From Bacteroidota bacterium (GTDB lineage Bacteria; Bacteroidota; Bacteroidia; Palsa-948), in the NCBI GenBank assembly GCA_016213405.1, contig JACRAM010000093.1:1-32730 (forward strand): 32,730 nucleotides of DNA, read 5' to 3'. Position numbers and translations under genes: made by a program. How positions within the stretch are numbered: position 1 is the first letter of the stretch; every line of letters begins with the position of its first letter. This document shows positions 1,898-32,542 of the stretch, one piece after another. The notes under the pieces are model-generated. The model did not search any database. It saw only the letters and a program-made list of their open reading frames with translations, and was not told the origin of the DNA.

Positions 1898-4846
<2,949 letters not shown>

Positions 4847-17596: not shown

Positions 17597-19573
17597 GTGC
17601 ATGACATTATAAAAATATCTCCCGAAGTTTATTGCAATTCTCTTTTTGAATATTCCCGTTTCAAAACACGCGAAGTTAAAGTCGGTGATTTAGGAATCGG
17701 AAGAAATAATCCCATCCGCATTCAGTCCATGACTACGACTGATACGATGAATACAATTGCTACGGTTGAGCAAAGCATTCGAATGATTCAGGCAGGATGC
17801 GAGTTGGTTCGAATCACAGCACCCAGTCTGAATGAAGCAAAAAATCTTGAACAAATAAAAAATGAACTGCGCAAGCGTGGATACAAAACTCCTATTTGCG
17901 CTGATATTCACTTCACACCCAATGCCGCAGAACACGCAGCAAGAATTGTTGAGAAGGTTCGCGTGAACCCGGGTAACTATGCTGACCGGAAAAAGTTTGA
18001 ACACATTGAATACACCGATAAGAGTTATGATGAAGAGCTAGAAAGAATCCGAGAACGATTTACTCCTCTGGTAAAAATCTGCAAAGAGAACGGAACGGCT
18101 ATGCGAATCGGAACCAATCACGGTTCGCTTTCGGATAGAATTCTTTCTCGCTATGGTGACACTCCGCTTGGTATGGTGGAAAGTGCAATGGAGTTTCTGA
18201 GAATCTGTGAAGAAGAAAAATATTTTGAGATCATTCTCTCCATGAAAGCCAGCAATACGCAGGTGATGGTGCAGGCGTATCGTTTGCTCGTTCACAAAAT
18301 GTTAGAGACAGATAGAAATTATCCGCTTCATCTTGGCGTTACTGAAGCAGGCGATGGTGAAGACGGAAGAATAAAATCCGCGGTAGGAATTGGAACTTTA
18401 TTGGAAGATGGATTGGGAGACACCATCCGAGTTTCACTTACAGAAGAACCCGAATTTGAAATTCCTGTGGCGAAAAATTTAGTGGAGAGATATTCAAACA
18501 GAAAAAATCATAAAGCAATTTCAAGTGTTTCAAGCCTCAAGTATAATCCATTTGAATATTCAAGAAGAGAAACAAAATCAGTTTCAAACATTGGCGGACA
18601 TAATGTTCCGAGAGTGATTGCAGATTTTTCTGACCTCACTCCCAGCCCCTCTCCTGAAGGAGAGGGGAGAATTACTCCTGCGAACTTATTTGCCGTAGGA
18701 TATAATTATTCTGTTCCGCTTGATAAATGGAATTTGACTGACCAAGCCTGCGATTACATTTATTTAGGTGATAACGAGATTGATTTTGAAATTCCCGGAA
18801 CGCTTGGGTTGATTTATAATTCTCAGGCTTTTGCCAAACTCAAAAACAAAACGCGCGCGTATCCTCTTTTTTGTGGAAGTGAATATTTTTCGGCTAAAGA
18901 AAAATCAAAGGAACTGAATTTTGTAGTGGTTGACATTGATACTTTGCTGAGCTCAAAATTCTCAAAAGACAAATTGGATTCAACGGTAGTTTTGATTTTC
19001 GATACGATGAACGAACATGGAATGGCTGAACAACGCAGAATGTTTTTTGAACTCGCCAATTATAAAATTCCTGTCATCATAAAAAGAAGCTATAAGGATT
19101 TATCCGAGGATAAATTTCAATTGTATTCTTCAACTGACTTAGGCGGATTATTGCTTGACGGCTTCGGAGATGGAATCTGGATTAAGCAGAAGAATTGCGC
19201 TTCACCACAAATCATTAACTCAACCGGATTTGGAATTCTTCAGGCAACTCGCACACGGATTTCCAAGACAGAATACATTTCCTGTCCGAGTTGCGGAAGA
19301 ACTTTATTTGACTTGCAGGAAACCACCGGAAAAATTCGCGCGCGCACTTCTCACCTCAAAGGAGTAAAAATTGGAATCATGGGTTGCATCGTGAACGGTC
19401 CTGGTGAAATGGCGGACGCGGATTACGGCTATGTGGGAACAGGAGTTGGAAAAATCACACTCTACAAAGGAAAAGAAGTGGTGAAAAGAAATATTTCCAG
19501 TGAAACTGCGGTGGATGAACTTATCTCACTCATCAAAGAAGGGGGCGATTGGGTGGAGAAAGAAATGCAATAG
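17597..19573 (+). CDS. ispG: 4-hydroxy-3-methylbut-2-enyl diphosphate synthase, long form
   Basis: A 658-residue IspG (GcpE), which converts MEcPP to HMBPP in the non-mevalonate isoprenoid pathway using a [4Fe-4S] cluster. The N-terminal TIM barrel carries IRIQSMTTTDTMNT, VRITAPS, ADIHFTPNAAE and EAGDGEDGRIKSAVGIG. A middle insert of about 240 residues (roughly 300-540) is the extra domain known from plant, chlamydial and Bacteroidota enzymes. The C-terminal domain has the cluster cysteines in CPSCGRT (near 562) and GCIVNGPGEMADADYG (near 595). The start is GTG; the nearby ATG at 17601 is out of frame. A palindromic repeat is read through in frame in the insert domain at about residues 348-358 (LTPSPSPEGEG). 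It stands alone before hmgA. Confidence 0.96.
   Translation: MHDIIKISPEVYCNSLFEYSRFKTREVKVGDLGIGRNNPIRIQSMTTTDTMNTIATVEQSIRMIQAGCELVRITAPSLNEAKNLEQIKNELRKRGYKTPICADIHFTPNAAEHAARIVEKVRVNPGNYADRKKFEHIEYTDKSYDEELERIRERFTPLVKICKENGTAMRIGTNHGSLSDRILSRYGDTPLGMVESAMEFLRICEEEKYFEIILSMKASNTQVMVQAYRLLVHKMLETDRNYPLHLGVTEAGDGEDGRIKSAVGIGTLLEDGLGDTIRVSLTEEPEFEIPVAKNLVERYSNRKNHKAISSVSSLKYNPFEYSRRETKSVSNIGGHNVPRVIADFSDLTPSPSPEGEGRITPANLFAVGYNYSVPLDKWNLTDQACDYIYLGDNEIDFEIPGTLGLIYNSQAFAKLKNKTRAYPLFCGSEYFSAKEKSKELNFVVVDIDTLLSSKFSKDKLDSTVVLIFDTMNEHGMAEQRRMFFELANYKIPVIIKRSYKDLSEDKFQLYSSTDLGGLLLDGFGDGIWIKQKNCASPQIINSTGFGILQATRTRISKTEYISCPSCGRTLFDLQETTGKIRARTSHLKGVKIGIMGCIVNGPGEMADADYGYVGTGVGKITLYKGKEVVKRNISSETAVDELISLIKEGGDWVEKEMQ
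18646..18667. repeat. Palindromic half-element inside ispG
   Basis: A 10-bp perfect stem (CCCCTCTCCT / AGGAGAGGGG, loop GA) preceded by CTCACTCCCAG, the arm of the GC-rich family. It is read in frame as LTPSPSPEGEG. The placement in the insert domain, away from the active site, explains how it is tolerated. Confidence 0.78.
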
Positions 19574-21304: not shown

Positions 21305-22389
21305 TAAAAAGCATACTCGTACTTAATAATCTTAATACTTGCTTTCTGCAACTGGCGGTCAATCTGCGAGGTCATTAATTTTTTCTCATCATCGTATAAG
21401 TAAACAATCTCATCGGTCTGTGTTCCGTTCTTGAATTGCTTTTCGGCAGTTACATTTCCAGCAGCATCATAATCGTAAGTTATTTTTTCAATATTATTTC
21501 CGCTGGAGTTGTCGGTCATTGTTTTCTCGGTTAATCTTTCGTGCGCGTCATACTTATAAGTAACGCCCGAGCGAATAAAGCCCACAATAAATTCATAAGA
21601 TTCATCTATTGGTTTCCCGTCTGTGAAATTTAAAATCCCCTGCTTGTAGGGCTTGCCTTCATCATTCAGGAATTTCTTTTTTACCTGCAGGGGTGTTAAC
21701 TGTTCATATTCAAATTTTTCATCTGAAATTATTGTCTGCACTCCCAACTTGAATACTTCGCCCGGCTTGGCAATGTTGGTTTCCTTGCAGAGCGTTTGCC
21801 GGCTTACTAATCCATCTCCAAAATATTCGTAGTAAGTGGAGTTGTAAAAATTTCCAATGCAGACGCGTTTCATTTTCAGATAGCCGTTGGAGGAATAAAA
21901 AAATTCCGTGCCGAGCGTATCGTACTGGTACTGGTAGTCAATTTTTGTTTGTGATTTCTTCACCACTTTTCCGTGCTTGTTATACACTGCAGGAACTTCT
22001 ATTTCAGTTTTCTCCAGCGAAGTGATTTCATTGTAATACTGATGAACCATGTTCCCTTCCATATCAAACGCAAAAACCTGAGCCAGCCCTTTGTCGCGGA
22101 TGATTTCTCCATCAGGTTTGTCTACCACGCTGGCAGAAATGGTTTTTATTTTATTCTGCTTGATAAAAATTCGGTTGAACTTTGGTTCGTTTGTGTAAAT
22201 TTCGTAGGGTGAAGGAGCGATGATTTGAGAATGGAGGCCCATCCCCGACCCTTCCCAAAGGGAAGGGAGTAAAAAAATAATTACTGCAAAATGTAAAAAG
22301 GATTTTGTCCTCTCCCCTTGGGGGAGAGTTAGAGAGGGGCTCTCATTTGCTTTAGTGCTTCGCTTGTATTTTCCGTTGGTAGTTTGCAT
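21301..22389 (-). CDS. Putative exported protein with YD-like repeats; N-terminus altered by repeat DNA
   Basis: A protein of up to 362 residues. The C-terminal half has YD/RHS-like strands: [50 protein letters not shown] and [10 protein letters not shown], suggesting a repetitive beta structure. The N-terminal region contains a hydrophobic export-signal core, [14 protein letters not shown]...HSQ. Two palindromic elements disturb it: one just before the core ([10 protein letters not shown]) and one inside it (SLWEGSGMG). The only ATG that reads through is at 22389, overlapping yyaL by 61 bp; an original start just before KSFLHF seems lost to the first insertion. Export may be impaired. Function unknown. 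Confidence 0.7.
22232..22343. repeat. Pair of inverted GC-rich palindromic half-elements
   Basis: Left half: GAGGCCCATCCCCGA then CCCTTCCC-AAA-GGGAAGGG (22249-22267). Right half, inverted: CTCTCCCC-TTG-GGGGAGAG (22310-22328) then TTAGAGAGGGGCTC. The 3' end of yyaL (APL-stop) and the 5' end of the next gene are both written in this DNA. Confidence 0.8.
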
Positions 22390-24449: not shown

Positions 24450-24950
24450 TCACTTGGAAAGCGAAACTGTTTTCTTCAATTCGATTGGAAATTTTTTCTT
24501 GTAAAACCATTTACCGACTTTCACATCTCCTTTCAACGAGAGCGCAGCGCTTTTTGAAGAAACCATCGGAAGAATTTTTGCGATGTCTCCAAATCCAAGT
24601 TTTGAAAAATCTGATTTGATATGAAACGTAGAAGTGTGTTCGCCCTTTGCTTTTATTTTTGTTTTCTTCGTCAGTTTCACATGTCCTGCATTAATATCAT
24701 TTACGTTCGCATCAAATGACGAAGGAAAAACATTTACGCTTACCGAATTCGGGTTATTAATCTTCATGTCGAAATCAAATTCAACCCCTTCTTTCGTTAA
24801 ACTGATAAGTTTTACATTGCTGACTCCGCTAATAGTCACCGGCTGAATTTCTTTACAGGAAGAAAAAAACAAGAATAAAAAAAGAAGCCCCACTCCAACT
24901 CTACCCAAAGGGAAGAGAGAAATAAAAGTAGGGATAGATATTTTTTTCAT
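24450..24950 (-). CDS. LEA14-like (LEA type 2) lipoprotein
   Basis: A 166-residue predicted lipoprotein: signal with hydrophobic core LLFLFLFF and lipobox FSSC (Cys32). The mature part is a single LEA-2/WHy-type beta-sandwich: VSNVKLISLTKEGVEFDFDM, then the hallmark INNPNSVSVNV, later GEHTSTFHIKSDFSKLG. Family members are linked to desiccation or envelope stress, but the exact role is unknown. The signal peptide contains LFPLGRVGVG, encoded by a palindromic half-element, so the hydrophobic core is displaced from the basic N-terminus (MKKIS). The DNA from 24884 to 24993 is a compound palindromic element that encloses the start codon. Confidence 0.82.
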   Translation of the reverse strand: MKKISIPTFISLFPLGRVGVGLLFLFLFFSSCKEIQPVTISGVSNVKLISLTKEGVEFDFDMKINNPNSVSVNVFPSSFDANVNDINAGHVKLTKKTKIKAKGEHTSTFHIKSDFSKLGFGDIAKILPMVSSKSAALSLKGDVKVGKWFYKKKFPIELKKTVSLSK

Positions 24951-24993
24951 GTGTTACTTTCCCTTCCCTTTGGGAAGGGTTAGGGATGGGCTT
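24884..24993. repeat. Pair of inverted palindromic half-elements around the LEA gene start
   Basis: Outer arms AAGCCC (24885-24890) and GGGCTT (24987-24992) enclose CTCTACCC-AAA-GGGAAGAG (about 24899-24917) and CCCTTCCC-TTT-GGGAAGGG (24961-24979). The LEA start codon (24950) lies between the halves; the dipeptidase stop is at the right edge. Confidence 0.75.
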
Positions 24994-26367
24994 CTACTTC
25001 ATTCCTTCCGCATAGTACTTAAAGAAAAGCGGAATCGTCTCAATCCCTTTGAAGTAATTGAACAAACCATAGCACTCATCGGGAGAATGGATGTTGTCAG
25101 AATCCAACCCAAATCCCATGAGTACGGTTTTTATCTTGAGTTCTTTTTCAAAGAGAGCAACAATCGGAATGCTTCCGCCTGAACGAACCGGAATTGGTTT
25201 CTTGCCAAACGTATCCTGCATTGCCTGACTCGCAGCTTTGTAGGCAACGGAATCGGTTGGAGTAACACATCCTTCTCCGCCATGAAGCGCAGTCACTTTT
25301 ACTTTCACCGATTTCGGAGCAATCTTCTTAAAATGTTTTTCAAAAAGTTTTCCGATTTTATCTGAATTCTGGTGCGGAACAAGTCGCATAGAAATTTTCG
25401 CAAACGCTTTTGAAGGAAGAACTGTTTTTGCTCCTTCGCCCTGATATCCTCCCCAGATTCCATTTAATTCTAAAGTCGGACGGATGGAAGTTTGTTCGGT
25501 TGCAGAATATCCTTTTTCTCCTCTTAAATCTGCAACGCCTAAATCTTTCATGTACGCTTTTTTGCTGAAGGGTGCTTTTGCCATTTCGGCTCTTTCTTTT
25601 TTGCTGACAATCTCCACATCTTTATAAAAACCGGGAATAGTAATTTTTCCGTTCTTATCTTTCATGGAAACAATCATCTCTGCAAGAACTGATATTGGAT
25701 TTCCCACCGCGCCTCCGTAAACTCCTGAATGCAAATCGCGGTTCGGTCCGGTCACTTCTACTTCCATATAAGCAAGTCCGCGTAAGCCGACCGTTATAGA
25801 CGGAATATCATTTGCGAGAATGCTCGTATCAGAAATCAACACCACATCCGCTTTTAATTTTTCTTTATTTGCCTTTACAAAGTTTCCAAGATTAGCAGAG
25901 CCCACTTCTTCTTCGCCTTCAATCATGAACTTCACATTGCAGGGGAGTGAATTTGTTTTCATCATCGCTTCAAATGCTTTCACGTGCATGTACACTTGCC
26001 CTTTATCATCACAGGAACCGCGCGCGTAGATTTTATCATTCTTGATTGCGGGTTCAAACGGTGGAGAAGTCCACAAGTTGAGCGGATCAGCGGGCTGAAC
26101 ATCGTAATGTCCGTACACAAGAACCGTTGGAAGAGATGAATTAATTATTTTTTCTCCATATACGATCGGATAGCCGGGAGTAGCACATATTTCTACTTTA
26201 TCCGCTCCAGCGGCAACCAATTTTTCTTTTACGACATCGGCAGTACGAAGAACATCCGCTTTATATTTCGGATCTGCGCTGATAGATGGAATGCGGAGCA
26301 AATCCAGAAGTTCATTGAGAAAACGGTCTTTGTTGGCTGCGATGTAAGAGTTGATTTGTGTAGGCAT
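24994..26367 (-). CDS. M20-family dipeptidase
   Basis: A 457-residue zinc dipeptidase of the M20 (ArgE/DapE/carboxypeptidase G2) superfamily, dipeptidase/CNDP-like branch, probably cytoplasmic. Metal-site motifs are VYGHYDVQP (first His), RGSCDDKGQ (bridging Asp), EGEEEVGS (catalytic Glu) and, near the end, GLDSDNIHSPDE (last His). The dimerisation lid lies between about 200 and 350. Start at 26367 (MPTQINSYIAAN) is chosen because the longer frame from 26412 (MPSPEGTPSELK) is written in palindromic repeat DNA. The substrate is likely a dipeptide or beta-Ala peptide. The gene is divergent from hemH. Confidence 0.92.
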   Translation of the reverse strand: MPTQINSYIAANKDRFLNELLDLLRIPSISADPKYKADVLRTADVVKEKLVAAGADKVEICATPGYPIVYGEKIINSSLPTVLVYGHYDVQPADPLNLWTSPPFEPAIKNDKIYARGSCDDKGQVYMHVKAFEAMMKTNSLPCNVKFMIEGEEEVGSANLGNFVKANKEKLKADVVLISDTSILANDIPSITVGLRGLAYMEVEVTGPNRDLHSGVYGGAVGNPISVLAEMIVSMKDKNGKITIPGFYKDVEIVSKKERAEMAKAPFSKKAYMKDLGVADLRGEKGYSATEQTSIRPTLELNGIWGGYQGEGAKTVLPSKAFAKISMRLVPHQNSDKIGKLFEKHFKKIAPKSVKVKVTALHGGEGCVTPTDSVAYKAASQAMQDTFGKKPIPVRSGGSIPIVALFEKELKIKTVLMGFGLDSDNIHSPDECYGLFNYFKGIETIPLFFKYYAEGMK

Positions 26368-26381
26368 GGTAAATGATTTTA

Positions 26382-26404
26382 GCTCCGAAGGAGTCCCTTC
26401 GGGA
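26382..26404. repeat. 23-bp repeat, inverted copy of one inside hemH
   Basis: GCTCCGAAGGAGTCCCTTC plus GGGA is the exact reverse complement of 26856-26878. It contains the short palindrome CTCCGAAGGAG. This copy is intergenic, 15 bp upstream of the dipeptidase start. Confidence 0.75.
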
Positions 26405-26430
26405 GAGGGCAAACGTAAGAAAAAAACATC

Positions 26431-26503
26431 AGGTAATCAGTGATTAGTAATCGGTTATCAGGGTGTATTTTACTATCCACCGGTAACTGATTACTGATAA
26501 CCA
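26431..26503. repeat. AT-rich inverted repeat (GGTTATCAG / CTGATAACC) upstream of hemH
   Basis: The left side reads GTAATCAGTGATTAGTAATC then GGTTATCAGG; the right side reads CCGGTAACTGATTACTGATA then ACC. The units resemble the GTAATCGG repeats at 27640 and 28298, so this is probably a third locus of the same family. Confidence 0.55.
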
Positions 26504-26512
26504 TTGTGTTTG

Positions 26513-26520
26513 TACATTCG
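26513..26520 (+). promoter_or_regulatory. -7 box TACATTCG for hemH
   Basis: TAnnTTCG 8 bp before the ATG at 26529, which would give a very short leader. Confidence 0.4.
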
Positions 26521-26528
26521 CATTTATT

Positions 26529-27644
26529 ATGAAAAAAGGTGTTTTGCTTATCAATCTCGGCTCTCCTGATTCTCCTTCTGTGAAGGATGTTAGAAAATAT
26601 CTCAAGCAGTTTCTGAACGACCCATTTGTAATTGACATAAACCCTATAGCAAGATTTTGTCTGGTGAACTTTATTATTGTTCCAACACGTTCGAAGAATT
26701 CCGCCAAACTTTATGAAGCCATCTGGACGAAAGAAGGTTCGCCCCTGATTGTTCACAGCAAAAAGCAAAAGGAGCTTCTTCAAAAGAGCCTCACCCCTAA
26801 CCCCTCTCCTGCAGGAGAGGGGAACAAATACATTGTCGAACTCGGAATGCGCTATTCCCGAAGGGACTCCTTCGGAGCAAGTCCAAGCATTGAAAGTGCC
26901 TTGAAGAATCTAAAGGAGAAAAATGTTTCAGAGATAATTGTCCTTCCGCTTTATCCGCAATACGCAACATCCTCTACAAAATCTTCTGTGGAAGAAGTGA
27001 AGCGAATAATCAGGAAAGGAAAGTATCCACCCGTAAAATTTATTGAGAAATTTTATGACGATGAAAATTATATTGAGGCAATGGCGGATGTTGCGAAGAA
27101 ATACATAGCCCCCCCTCCCCCCGAAGGGGGGAAAACAGGCGAAAGTGTTTTTGATTTCCCCCTTCGGGGGATTGAGGGGGCTTGGGATTTCTTCATTTTC
27201 AGTTATCACGGTTTGCCCGAAAGGCAAATCACAAAAGAATCATCGCATTGCAAAATCAATAATGAGTGTTGTTCTTCCATAAACGAACACAATAAACTCT
27301 GCTACCGCGCAGGTTGTTTTGAAACTACAAGGCGGCTTGCTCAAAAATTAAACATCCCGAAAGAAAAATATACTATATCCTTTCAATCGCGCCTCGATGA
27401 TAAGTGGCTGAAACCGTATTCGGATAAAGTGATTGAGGAAAAAGCAAAGCAAGGCATAAAAAAAATTCTTGTCTTCTCCCCTGCTTTTGTTGCCGATTGC
27501 CTGGAAACCATTTATGAAATCGGAACAGAATACAATTACATCTTCAAAAATCACGGAGGAGAAAAACTACAATTAGTGGAATCGCTGAATGAAAATCCGA
27601 AGTGGATTGAGGCGCTGAGAAATATGGTAATCGGTGAACAGTAA
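26529..27644 (+). CDS. hemH: Ferrochelatase with three repeat-encoded inserts
   Basis: A 371-residue ferrochelatase, the enzyme that puts iron into protoporphyrin (or coproporphyrin) in heme synthesis. The N-terminus has VLLINLGSPDSPSVKDVRKY and FLNDPFVIDI. The core has VLPLYPQYATSST and FIFSYHGLPERQ with the metal-binding His near residue 225. The C-terminal half has SFQSRLDDKWLKPYSD and the VFSPAFVADCLETIYEI stretch with the conserved Glu. Typical bacterial length is about 320-345. The excess comes from three palindromic elements read in frame: LTPNPSPAGEG (near 88-98), SRRDSFGA (near 109-116) and PPPPEGGK...FPLRGIEGA (near 194-218). All lie between, not in, conserved motifs. Confidence 0.95.
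   Translation: MKKGVLLINLGSPDSPSVKDVRKYLKQFLNDPFVIDINPIARFCLVNFIIVPTRSKNSAKLYEAIWTKEGSPLIVHSKKQKELLQKSLTPNPSPAGEGNKYIVELGMRYSRRDSFGASPSIESALKNLKEKNVSEIIVLPLYPQYATSSTKSSVEEVKRIIRKGKYPPVKFIEKFYDDENYIEAMADVAKKYIAPPPPEGGKTGESVFDFPLRGIEGAWDFFIFSYHGLPERQITKESSHCKINNECCSSINEHNKLCYRAGCFETTRRLAQKLNIPKEKYTISFQSRLDDKWLKPYSDKVIEEKAKQGIKKILVFSPAFVADCLETIYEIGTEYNYIFKNHGGEKLQLVESLNENPKWIEALRNMVIGEQ
26801..26822. repeat. Palindromic half-element inside hemH (first)
   Basis: A perfect 22-nt palindrome (CCCCTCTCCTG / CAGGAGAGGGG) with the arm CTCACCCCTAA before it. Same stem as in ispG at 18646 apart from the loop. It is read in frame as LTPNPSPAGEG. Confidence 0.8.
26856..26878. repeat. 23-bp repeat inside hemH (second)
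   Basis: TCCCGAAGGGACTCCTTCGG plus AGC, an inverted copy of 26382-26404. It adds eight codons between GMRY and the PSIESAL helix. Confidence 0.75.
27108..27185. repeat. Compound palindromic element inside hemH (third)
   Basis: Arms AGCCCCC and GGGGGCT enclose CCCCCCGAAGGGGGG (27117-27131) and CCCCCTTCGGGGG (27159-27171). The length is 78 nt, divisible by three, adding about 26 codons just before the conserved WDFFIFSYHG strand. Same design as the gcvP element at 2561. Confidence 0.8.
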
Positions 27645-27658
27645 TCGGTAATCGGTTG
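27640..27658. repeat. 19-bp direct repeat, left of the DUF433/DUF5615 module
   Basis: AGTAATCGGTAATCGGTTG, identical to 28298-28316. It overlaps the hemH stop codon region. Confidence 0.8.
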
Positions 27659-27683
27659 GTGGTTACAGCAGATAATGCAGGCA

Positions 27684-28031
27684 TTAAATTTCTCTGCTTC
27701 TGATTTTTCGCGTAGTAATTGTAGTGAATTTGTTATAAAACTTTTCTGTGCCGACTTTAAGTATCGCTGAAACTATTTTAATTATTTGCGCTGTTTCTGT
27801 AAAATGATAACGTAAAAAAATAACGCTTATCCCTTTTGTCTTATGGGCAAACACCCACTCTCCGAAATCTTTGTCTTCAGTGAGAATAATTCTGTTGGTG
27901 GTTTTAGCAAGAAGGATAATCTCTTCATCCTGCATTCCGCGGTAACTTTCTTTTATCGAAAGCACATCTGCCGGAATTTTTCGCAATGCGTCTATGAGAT
28001 CGGTGTGCGTATTTTCGTCTGCAAGTATCAT
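27684..28031 (-). CDS. DUF5615 PIN-like toxin
   Basis: A 115-residue protein of the DUF5615 (PIN-like, Mut7-C related) family, predicted ribonuclease toxin of a type II system. Acidic residues suited to a PIN-like metal site are visible: ADEN (Asp5, Glu6) at the N-terminus and LTEDKDFGEW in the middle, followed by the strand GISVIFLRY. Residues 90-115 are basic (TTRKIRSREI). The ATG follows directly after the stop codon of the DUF433 gene (TAAATG), so the pair is cotranscribed and tightly coupled. The whole module lies between perfect 19-bp repeats. Confidence 0.85.
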   Translation of the reverse strand: MILADENTHTDLIDALRKIPADVLSIKESYRGMQDEEIILLAKTTNRIILTEDKDFGEWVFAHKTKGISVIFLRYHFTETAQIIKIVSAILKVGTEKFYNKFTTITTRKIRSREI

Positions 28032-28256
28032 TTATGCAGCTGCAACCATTTCCTCTCCTGAAATGGCATCGGCAGCATAGGCAAGCACAGCTAACACATC
28101 TTCTTTTGTAAGATGGTCATACATTTTCAGAATATCGTCAAGTGTAGCGCCTTCAGACATTTTTCTGATTATGCTTTCCACGGTAATACGAGTGCCTTTA
28201 ATTACCGGCTTGCCGAGCATTATACGGTGGTCAGATATGATTCTATCATTATTCAT
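28032..28256 (-). CDS. DUF433 antitoxin
   Basis: A 74-residue DUF433 protein: RIISDHRIMLGKPVIKGTRI, then VESIIRKMSEGATLDDILKM and YDHLTKEDVLAVLAYAAD. This is a winged-helix-like fold related to the Vap antitoxin group, and DUF433 genes commonly precede DUF5615 genes as the antitoxin. Start at 28256 (MNNDRIIS) fits the family; the longer frame from 28334 runs through the repeat. A TATCTTTA box (28261-28268) is only 4 bp upstream, so the message would be leaderless or the promoter lies elsewhere. Confidence 0.85.
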   Translation of the reverse strand: MNNDRIISDHRIMLGKPVIKGTRITVESIIRKMSEGATLDDILKMYDHLTKEDVLAVLAYAADAISGEEMVAAA

Positions 28257-28297
28257 GGAGTAAAGATACAAAAACTTGCAGATAGTACGGGGAAAGA

Positions 28298-28316
28298 AGT
28301 AATCGGTAATCGGTTG
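28298..28316. repeat. 19-bp direct repeat, right of the DUF433/DUF5615 module
   Basis: Identical to 27640-27658. Followed by TTGCTGATTACC and CCGATAACTGATT, related AT-rich units. Confidence 0.8.
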
Positions 28317-28346
28317 TTGCTGATTACCAAACACCGATAACTGATT

Positions 28347-30950
28347 TTACTTAATCACAAGTTTCTTCTTGTAAATAGTATCATTGGAGGTAGCCACTAC
28401 AAAGTAAACTCCGGCAGCAAGTTTTCCCGAAGGGTCAACGGCAATTGTTTCTGCGTCATTAGCTGATAATAAAATCACTTGCGAATAAAATTCTCTGCCA
28501 AGCAAATCCCTTACCACAATGAGTACGTTATCTCCCTGCGTGCCTGATACACTCACATTAAAGATGCCGCTGGCTGGATTTGGATAAACGGCAAACCCAC
28601 CCTTATTGCCACAGCCATTTACAGGAATCATATTAAAGGTTTGTGTTTGTCCGTTAAAATCAGTTTCAGATAAACGGTAATAAGATACCGCGCTGAATGA
28701 CTCCGTATCTTCAGCAGAATATTTTTTTACGGTTGAACTATTTCCTGCCGCAGTTACTTTGGAAATAGGATAAAACACCGTACCATCTGTGCTTTTCTCC
28801 AGCGTAAAGTAATCAGCGTTTTGCTCAGTGGCGGTCTCCCATTCCGCTTGCATTTTATAGCCTTTGCAATCTACATTGAAATAAAGAAGTTCCACTGGCA
28901 GCGGATTAACTCCCCCGATTGTTTTTGAACCGAAGGTGAATGGACTATATTGTAATTCACCTGTAGGAGATTGTATGGTGCCCGCCCCATTTCCTGCACA
29001 TGAGCCTGTAAGAATGCAATTAGCTACAGGATTAATATTCGTTGTGTTAAGTTCCCAGCAATTTACACCGTTTTCAACAAGTGTATTATCTAAATGGGCA
29101 ATCACCAAATCTGCTGTGCAGCTATTAATATCACTTGCAGCAGCATCTTCCCAATAAAGTGTAACTTGTGGAGTGTACGCTCCTGCTGTTCTGTCAAGCA
29201 TCCAATATTCTTTACCGCTAACTTCTAATAACCTTCCGGCAATGCTGTCAGCATTAAGAATATTGATAGTTGAATATCCTCCACGAAAATATTGCGCGTC
29301 AAACTGATCGGTATTTAATCCGCCAGTGCCGGTAATTCCTATTCTTCTCCACCAGGGAGTGCCGCTCACGATATTTCCAACGGGAAACACAAAATTATCA
29401 TTGCCTACTTTTCTCATAGGACCCGTTACAAAACTTGCCGCAGAACCAGAAGTAGATGTTGCGGCATCATTTATTATTAAAAGCTGGGGCGCTGAGGTAT
29501 AAAAATAACCATCGGTTAATGTAAGTGCATTAGAAACAACTGCTCCTTTAGTTACTCCGCTTACGTTTAACGTTACACCTGTGGAACTCGTGTTATTAAT
29601 GGTTAATTTATAAAAGGATGTTCTGGAAGCACCGGTGATTTGCTGGGACTGGGAACCATTCATTTTAATAGTAGCAGTAGAAGAAGAATAAGTGCCATCA
29701 TTAATAAAATCTCCTCCAATGTTTATCGTATTTGCTCCCGCATTGGTATTATCAAGCGTGCCGCTTTTTATCCACATATCATTTGCAATATCTACTGTGA
29801 GAGCAGTATTGCCGAATTTAATAGAATTACCGGTGGTAGCATAAAAATAAACATTGTAATAATCATCTTGAAGATTAAACCCCCCTGCTCCGCTACCGCT
29901 AGGCCAATCAAGAAAAAGAGTGCCTGTGCCATAGTTGGATTTTGTTACATCAACACTGCCTCCACCTTGTAAATCAAGCATTCCGGTATTGTAGTTTACA
30001 TAAAAAACATTGCCGAAACCAAAGGTAATTGTGAGGGTATTACTGCCAAAATTAAGCACTCCATTTGTTGCAGGAGTACCAGTAGAACCATCATGATTGA
30101 GAAGTTTTATTGCAAGATTACTAGTTAAAGTATAGTTGGCGCCATTTTGTATGCGAAAGATTCCATTTGTAACTAAGGCAGAAGTGGCATAAATGCCCGT
30201 TCCGCCCCAAGCACCTTGTCCGAAAAGGTCAACGTAGAAGGAGGCATCATCAAATCTTCCGTTGTTATTTATACTTCCATAAATATCTAATGCCTGGCTT
30301 ACTGTTAATACAGCGCCTGCATTAAGAGTTAAGTCCCTGCAACTTGCAGCGGCAGAAATGGTGGGCTGATTTCCCCCAGAAGGAATGGTAACATCATCAC
30401 AGGCTGCCGGCACTCCGGAAGGACTCCAATTTGTAGCGGTTCCCCAAGCAGTTGTTCCGCTGGTAAGCCATGTTTTAGCATTTCCACAAGTTGTTACTGC
30501 AATATCCCATGTCCAACTGGCACCACAGGGACCTCCATTACTGTATATTAATTGAATATAGTAAGTGTTCCCTATTGTTAATCCGGATAAAACAATCATA
30601 TTAGGATTAGCGCTGCTGGAAATACCACAGTTGCTGCCGATTTCTGTAAAAGCGAAACAAGTTCCGCTGTAAACAACACCATTGGAAAGGCACCCTCCGC
30701 TAAGTTTGTTTATGCTAACTCCATGCGAAGTGGCTGTTGCAACAAATTTATACCATACAGATTGTTGTAAAATACCGCAAGAGGGAGTAGGTTCACCTAC
30801 TTGTGTAGTGGCAGATGCGCTTGTTCCTGCTATGGGAGCGGCACCACCGTAAGCGTAGTAGCACTGGCGCAATTATCATTGGCGGGTTGGGCAAATGCGT
30901 TTACACTAAAAAACATTAAGGCAACTGCGTATGTAAGATGTTTTTGCACT
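28347..30950 (-). CDS. Secreted T9SS type A protein, frameshifted near the N-terminus
   Basis: A large cargo gene of about 867 codons broken by a one-base loss. From GTG 30950 the frame gives a signal peptide (MQKHLTYAVALMFFSVNAFA, cleavage after Q) and NDNCASATTLTV, then a TAG at 30830-30832. Adding one G near 30842-30850 joins it to the frame that continues AAPIAGTSASATTQVGEPTP to the end. The first domain has the ND-C-A...EPTPSC...VWYKF pattern common in Bacteroidota secreted proteins. The middle (CRDLTLNAGAVLTVSQALDI onward) looks like a beta-helix. The tail has PVELLYFNV, then YPNPASGIFNVSVSGTQGDN and GVYFVVATSN, a type A sorting domain. It starts 8 bp after the 30959 gene. Confidence 0.85.
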
Positions 30951-32496: not shown

Positions 32497-32542
32497 CCTC
32501 CCGATAGTGCCGAAGGCACTCCTTCGGAGCTATCGGGGGAGG
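32497..32542. repeat. Large hairpin upstream of the MORN gene
   Basis: CCTCCCGATAG (32497-32507) pairs with CTATCGGGGGAGG (32530-32542, one bulge pair), enclosing an inner CCGAAGG-CACT-CCTTCGG hairpin. ACTCCTTCGGAGC is shared with the 23-bp repeat in hemH. It could be a terminator for a plus-strand transcript (TTTT follows) but no plus-strand gene precedes it; a repeat-family member is likelier. Confidence 0.6.

Follow-up and report, generated by a model that had tools for sequence, protein, structure and literature searches.

Intrastrand triplex motifs have been described in bacterial genomes as TM_ECO and, earlier, as PIT elements (Holder et al. 2015, PMC4666352, citing Hoyne et al. 2000). 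According to the accessible part of PMC4666352, TM_ECO adopts a triplex fold in vitro, footprinting detected no stable triplex in E. coli cells, and every copy in E. coli MG1655 is reported to be intergenic; this part of the paper names no partner gene for TM_ECO. Neither a partner gene nor a mechanism of spread is known for bacterial triplex repeats from the literature searched, with subscription papers and preprints lying outside the search. Palindromic inserts within open reading frames are on record for Rickettsia and also, in the form of REPs, for other bacteria (PMC2229807, PMC3733652), and the product of a Rickettsia gmk gene bearing such an element retains its enzyme activity (PMC2229807).

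The locus considered here is hemH, encoding ferrochelatase, in the genome of an uncultivated Bacteroidota bacterium; it lies in a window of 32,730 nucleotides. Its frame is free of stops through three inserts, A, B and C (Table 1), which bears out the original prediction of three in-frame repeat insertions. The net gains of the inserts come from codon-level comparison of hemH with six genomes of the same genus (G001–G006), which are too diverged at hemH to give base-exact junctions. Together the net gains (27 + 21 + 66 nt) account for 38 of the 41 residues by which the protein exceeds the 330-residue HemH of the nearest allele, that of G004, so that most of its excess length is explained by the inserts, as had been proposed.

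Table 1. Features of the hemH locus and related repeats, numbered from the first nucleotide of the window
Feature	Position	Strand	Details
Triplex pair in gcvP	2562-2637		tails outward; gcvP at 1898-4846, - strand
Single triplex element in a predicted gene	18634-18667		gene at 17729-19573; G005 also has an element at this site, G001 and G006 have none
Triplex pair	22234-22342		tails outward; spacer 42 nt
Inverted triplex pair	24884-24995		at the end of and past predicted gene 24450-24950
Inverted copy of insert B	26382-26404		100% identical; in the spacer before hemH, about 125 nt from the start of the gene
hemH (ferrochelatase)	26529-27644	+	371 aa; PF00762 E=1.5e-94; TIGR00109 255 bits, cut-off 124.6
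Insert A	26789-26822	-	single triplex element, 34 nt; net +27 nt
A, mirror tail	26789-26797		
A, spacer	26798-26800		
A, pyrimidine arm	26801-26809		
A, loop	26810-26813		
A, purine arm	26814-26822		
Insert B	26856-26878		23-bp element TCCCGAAGGGACTCCTTCGGAGC; two mini-hairpins; net +21 nt
Insert C	27108-27181		inverted pair of triplex elements, tails outward; net +66 nt
C, left hairpin	27116-27132		
C, right hairpin	about 27157-27171		
C, right tail	27175-27181		
Further copy of the B family	32510-32532		one mismatch

The inserts fall into two kinds: A and C represent the PIT/TM type of intrastrand-triplex element, and B is a RAYT-associated repeat. The 22-nt palindrome that had been taken for a half-element is present (CCCCTCTCCTGCAGGAGAGGGG, 26801-26822), not as a half-element but as the core of the 34-nt insert A. 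The G-strand of this insert reads CCCCTCTCC-TGCA-GGAGAGGGG-TTA-GGGGTGAGG, and it adds TPNPSPAGE between the L and the G of a native LG. The 23-bp palindromic repeat and the compound element of the original prediction were both located, as inserts B and C; a perfect inverted repeat of the former precedes the gene, and the latter replaces four native residues and has a DNA fold with z=-4.8. The patterns of A and B occur about 45 and about 30 times in the genome, with no matches for reversed-pattern controls, and their recurrence is not due to chance. A text search of the literature, with subscription papers and preprints outside its reach, returned no paper on the encoded peptides (LTPNPSP and others).

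In an AlphaFold model of HemH built with three sequences as input, and of moderate quality (mean pLDDT 63), insert A lies between helix 72-88 and strand 101-107, insert B between strand 101-107 and helix 121-130, and insert C between helix 179-193 and strand 221-227. None of the three falls in the conserved SYHGLPER segment. It is extremely improbable that the inserts are missing from the working protein, whether because they are removed at the RNA or protein level, as an intron or intein, or because hemH is a pseudogene or misassembled. No point in support of this was found, and against it stand the absence of any Rfam match across 24500-29500, net gains that are all multiples of three in an open frame, and the occurrence of similar inserts in further genomes from this genus. 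hemH is also single-copy: a second, uninterrupted gene, which would have spoken against the original prediction, was sought in the genome with the PF00762 profile, and the single match was hemH itself.

Inserts A and C belong to an abundant family. A survey of 1.2 Mb of this genome yielded 146 hairpins with a pyrimidine-rich 5' arm and 2 with a purine-rich one, an abundance that supports high element activity, one of the two causes first proposed for the insertions. Most of the 146 follow a common formula, namely AG, a tail, about 3 bases, a pyrimidine arm, a loop, a purine arm and AG. In sequence, the tail mirrors the pyrimidine arm and varies together with it: CCCTTCCC is found with CCCATCCC, TCCTTCCC with CCCATCCT, CTCTCCCC with CCCCTCTC and CCCTCTCC with CCTCACCC. 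The fit to the mirror rule, scored over 120 asymmetric arms, is 6.61 of 8, compared to 5.65±0.06 when arms are swapped among elements, and the observed fit was reached by none of 500 swaps. The rule is not universal, since 67 of the 146 hairpins fit at a spacer of 3-4 with at least 6 of 8. Opposite an arm T the tail base is T in 86 cases, A in 45, and C and G in one each; opposite an arm C it is C. Read on the other strand, this rule is the code of a purine-motif triple helix. Both hallmarks of TM/PIT motifs were found: a pyrimidine–purine hairpin with a short loop, in hemH A and C included, and a third segment mirroring the stem by the purine-motif code, though not in every element. The mirror co-variation is repeated in elements beside DUF559 genes, in the genus and in other families, and tails point outward in 28 of 31 neighbouring hairpin pairs.

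Three other accounts of the tail were rejected. As a direct repeat of the arm it has a fit of 5.68, near the swap level of 5.52. A G-quadruplex or i-motif as its general reason needs four G3 tracts, and is dismissed because, judging from the element list, classes like GGAGAGGGG keep the mirror rule without them. A subterminal motif of the ACGCGCAA type, common to all pairs and cassettes, was seen in 3 of 28 pairs.

At least 76 of the 146 hairpins are intragenic, 74 in called genes and 2 in hemH; these counts are lower bounds because the gene caller was crude and overlooked even hemH. The hosts, judged by sequence, include the core genes gcvP, ligA, glyA, prfC, murD, murE, aroB, mutS, meaB and recG, and comparison of thirteen element-bearing genes showed plain empty sites in congeners. 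Insertions in the congeners, hemH included, fall at sites used in this genome in 12 of 17 cases (1.4 expected if uniform), a figure inflated by shared ancestry and interspecies transfer, as indicated by conflicting relationships of ligA and hemH. By eye, elements recur close to the N-terminus of proteins predicted to be secreted (e.g. C54:56415, C88:3883, C68:52719), where the tail encodes residues near the likely signal-peptide cleavage site. In ligA and aroB of G003 (L175, L199), a repeat coding for GRDLKSRP occupies sites that hold triplex elements in related species.

Within hemH, site A is occupied in the present genome, G005 and G006, and site C in these three and G003; both are empty in G001, G002, G004 and the aligned outgroups. 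The simplest interpretation is that elements inserted repeatedly into two tolerant loops, and the occupation of the same two loops in relatives supports loop preference, the second cause originally proposed. A more tentative reading, somewhat doubtful though compatible with the explanation preferred below, is that A and C each derive from one old insertion which was later lost, remodelled or exchanged. This reading would accommodate the W found instead of Y after insert C in three species, the shared element class of this genome and G006 at site A, and the disagreement between the hemH gene tree and the species tree on G006, a conflict from which it follows that alleles have moved. Against it, a hemH tree made without the insert columns joins the present allele to the empty one of G004 (100/98) and places the remaining alleles, those of G003, G005 and G006 among them, in a second group (100/99); the elements at site C are of different classes between species, and the empty alleles have kept outgroup-like sequence. 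Recombination between species in hemH is likely, and because the tree conflict points to it the number of independent hits is uncertain. Of the three independent insertions envisaged at the outset, B, which is absent from hemH of all six congeners and present in this genome alone, is clearly an event separate from A and C; the independence of A and C is uncertain, and their history may be more complex, interspecies recombination included.

A DUF559 domain between two triplex elements was first revealed by comparison of recG. DUF559 proteins are endonuclease-like, of the PD-(D/E)XK/Vsr-like type. By title and abstract opening, no paper on DUF559 concerning repeats or gene mobility was found in a literature search that left subscription papers and preprints outside. 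Across the genus and other Bacteroidia, 23 of 30 DUF559 loci have triplex-type hairpins on both sides, at most 260 nt away; the same arrangement is seen at 0 of the 27 RAYT loci compared and in 0.2% of windows drawn at random from this genome. The layout of these cassettes is regular, with hairpins at similar distances and tails mostly outward. They lie in frame in RecJ (within DHH), TsaD, MutS (domain III), RecG (helicase C), HsdR, MetH and SpoIIE-type proteins, and they split the Pfam domains of RecJ, TsaD, MutS and MetH. Neither inteins nor introns were recognised, there being no Pfam splicing domain in nine cassette-bearing proteins and no Rfam match near hemH. The recG gene of this genome (L119:7632-9803) carries its cassette in frame within the helicase C domain, at a site that is empty in four congeners. 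One mutS site holds a cassette in two congeners and is empty in four; here it looks like the remnant of a cassette with both ends kept. The repair genes recG, recJ and mutS recur as hosts, and recJ contains a cassette in G001, G005 and G003 (L242, L232, L253), that of L242, the one scanned, being within DHH.

Outward-facing hairpin pairs, insert C of hemH among them, are arranged like a DUF559 cassette that lacks the gene, and the elements are therefore taken as non-autonomous relatives of such cassettes. The left end of insert C resembles that of a DUF559 cassette of G006 (L243). As in MITEs, which have their ends in common with a longer enzyme-coding element, the same outward-tailed ends are seen in the cassettes. 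Over 60 genomes, with kinship ignored, the number of elements correlates with that of DUF559 genes (Spearman 0.66), as it does outside the genus (0.52, p=7e-5, kinship again ignored). The association in presence outside the genus is weak (both in 13 genomes, elements only in 4, DUF559 only in 18, neither in 18; Fisher p 0.08), and in many genomes that have one or two DUF559 genes the single motif counted is without a match; G001, with two such genes, has very few elements. The original interpretation is partly supported; it had missed the difference between the triplex elements A and C and the other family of B, the dozens of affected genes and the flanking of DUF559.

A decidedly unlikely alternative regards the A/C elements as REPs that RAYT (HUH) transposases mobilise, DUF559 being unrelated. 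The genome has 8 Y1_Tnp genes, and G001, which has none, has few elements; moreover, a hairpin with a guide tail is a typical RAYT substrate (PMC6006769), and insert B does fit. RAYT as the mobiliser of A and C is nevertheless contradicted by the flanks, since not one of the 27 RAYT loci has such elements on both sides, and by copy numbers, which are unrelated to RAYT number once DUF559 is controlled for (0.10, kinship ignored). The GTAG/CGTC tag described for REPs (PMC3733652) is likewise missing. For insert B, RAYT is the better match: TCCCnnnGGGA / CTCCnnnGGAG mini-hairpins accompany 11 of 12 TYTQ-type RAYT genes and none of the 18 other RAYTs, and B is a fused pair of mini-hairpins like these, thus sharing the RAYT-flanking character of REP/RAYT repeats. 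It most likely arrived by another route than A and C, through a RAYT (HUH) transposase.

The association of DUF559 with hairpins extends to other phyla. In plasmid records from Cyanobacteriota, Proteobacteria and Deinococcota, all 14 DUF559 loci have hairpins on at least one side and 5 have them on both, with a density of 4.1 per kb near the gene and 0.56 per kb farther out; the mirror rule holds at these elements, its fit being reached by none of 1000 swaps. Two such genes lie between functionally linked neighbours, one between two transhydrogenase subunit genes in Sphingomonas (L279) and one between paaD and paaZ in Deinococcus (L278). The DUF559 gene of E. coli K-12, ycjD, occurs in 3,365 of 5,426 complete genomes of the species. 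In K-12 MG1655 a hairpin that matches the published triplex pattern follows the 3' end of ycjD at a distance of about 170 nt (L267:7207-7240; chance about 0.4%), and a degenerate motif overlaps that end. It is possible that DUF559 is a passenger or itself lands in elements. The fuller form of this idea, in which DUF559 is a target or passenger of pre-existing triplex elements spread by replication slippage, template switching or recombination, is nonetheless unlikely. Palindromes and triplexes are unstable and tied to rearrangement (PMC4666352), and template switching could maintain perfect stems; the regular cassette layout, with similar hairpin distances and outward tails, the cassette, remnant and empty states of one mutS site, and the association in further phyla all argue against it.

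The explanation that fits best overall is probably that the A/C repeats are triplex elements and non-autonomous partners of a DUF559 nuclease, B having come separately. The mirror copy of the arm can lie against the hairpin as a third strand, and may do so in cells, and the short elements would be MITE-like, non-autonomous relatives of a cassette consisting of an element, DUF559 and an inverted element. The DUF559 protein may recognise the folded element and help it to be copied elsewhere, perhaps through a break and its repair. Intragenic insertions would survive solely where the frame stays open and the protein loop is tolerant, so that tolerance would act as a filter; in hemH the tolerant spots would be the helix-to-strand turns at A and C, and relatives would be occupied at the same sites because these turns tolerate insertion. 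More broadly, DUF559 and triplex repeats could well form a widespread mobile system in several phyla, a counterpart of RAYT/REP with a Vsr-like nuclease, inserting elements and cassettes in frame into core enzymes. The DUF559 association can be checked in E. coli K-12 at ycjD, which makes the origin of triplex repeats directly testable. The in-frame colonisation of core enzymes offers a natural test bed for the tolerance of proteins to inserted peptides, and such elements call for caution in genome annotation.

Of the systems described previously, the Rickettsia palindromic elements (RPEs) have, to our knowledge, neither a triplex tail nor a link to DUF559. They resemble the present elements in being palindromic insertions, in frame, in conserved protein genes (Ogata 2000; PMC2229807), but they are 105-146 bp long (PMC2229807), compared to about 35-80 bp for the A/C type, and the hemH inserts, at 34-74 nt, fall short of that range and differ in anatomy. 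The REP/REPIN/RAYT system shares several features with A and C: short palindromes, occurrence as singles and inverted pairs, a flanked partner nuclease gene and, in some species, intragenic copies (PMC3733652, PMC6006769). Inserts A and C differ from REPs in having a C-rich mirror tail in place of the GTAG/CGTC tag at the hairpin foot (PMC3733652), and in being associated with DUF559 rather than a Y1 HUH transposase; it is insert B that resembles RAYT-flanking repeats. The cassette genes contain the same endonuclease-like domain as YcjD/DUF559 (PF04480; solved relative 3hrl). TM_ECO/PIT elements, as described in PMC4666352, have in common with the A/C type a hairpin with a mirror third segment, the purine-motif code, a spacer such as TTA, dispersed singles alongside inverted pairs, and copy numbers that are very different between close relatives. 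Unlike TM_ECO, described there as intergenic in MG1655, at least half of the elements here are intragenic and in frame, and they fall into many co-varying stem classes. The exact TM_ECO pattern, CCCTCNCCC-N3-6-GGGNGAGGG-N3-GGGNGAGGG, has 1 match in 1.2 Mb, and insert A departs from it in its 9-nt arms and shifted register. Insert A is nonetheless close to the TM_ECO design, and insert C consists of two such elements facing outward.
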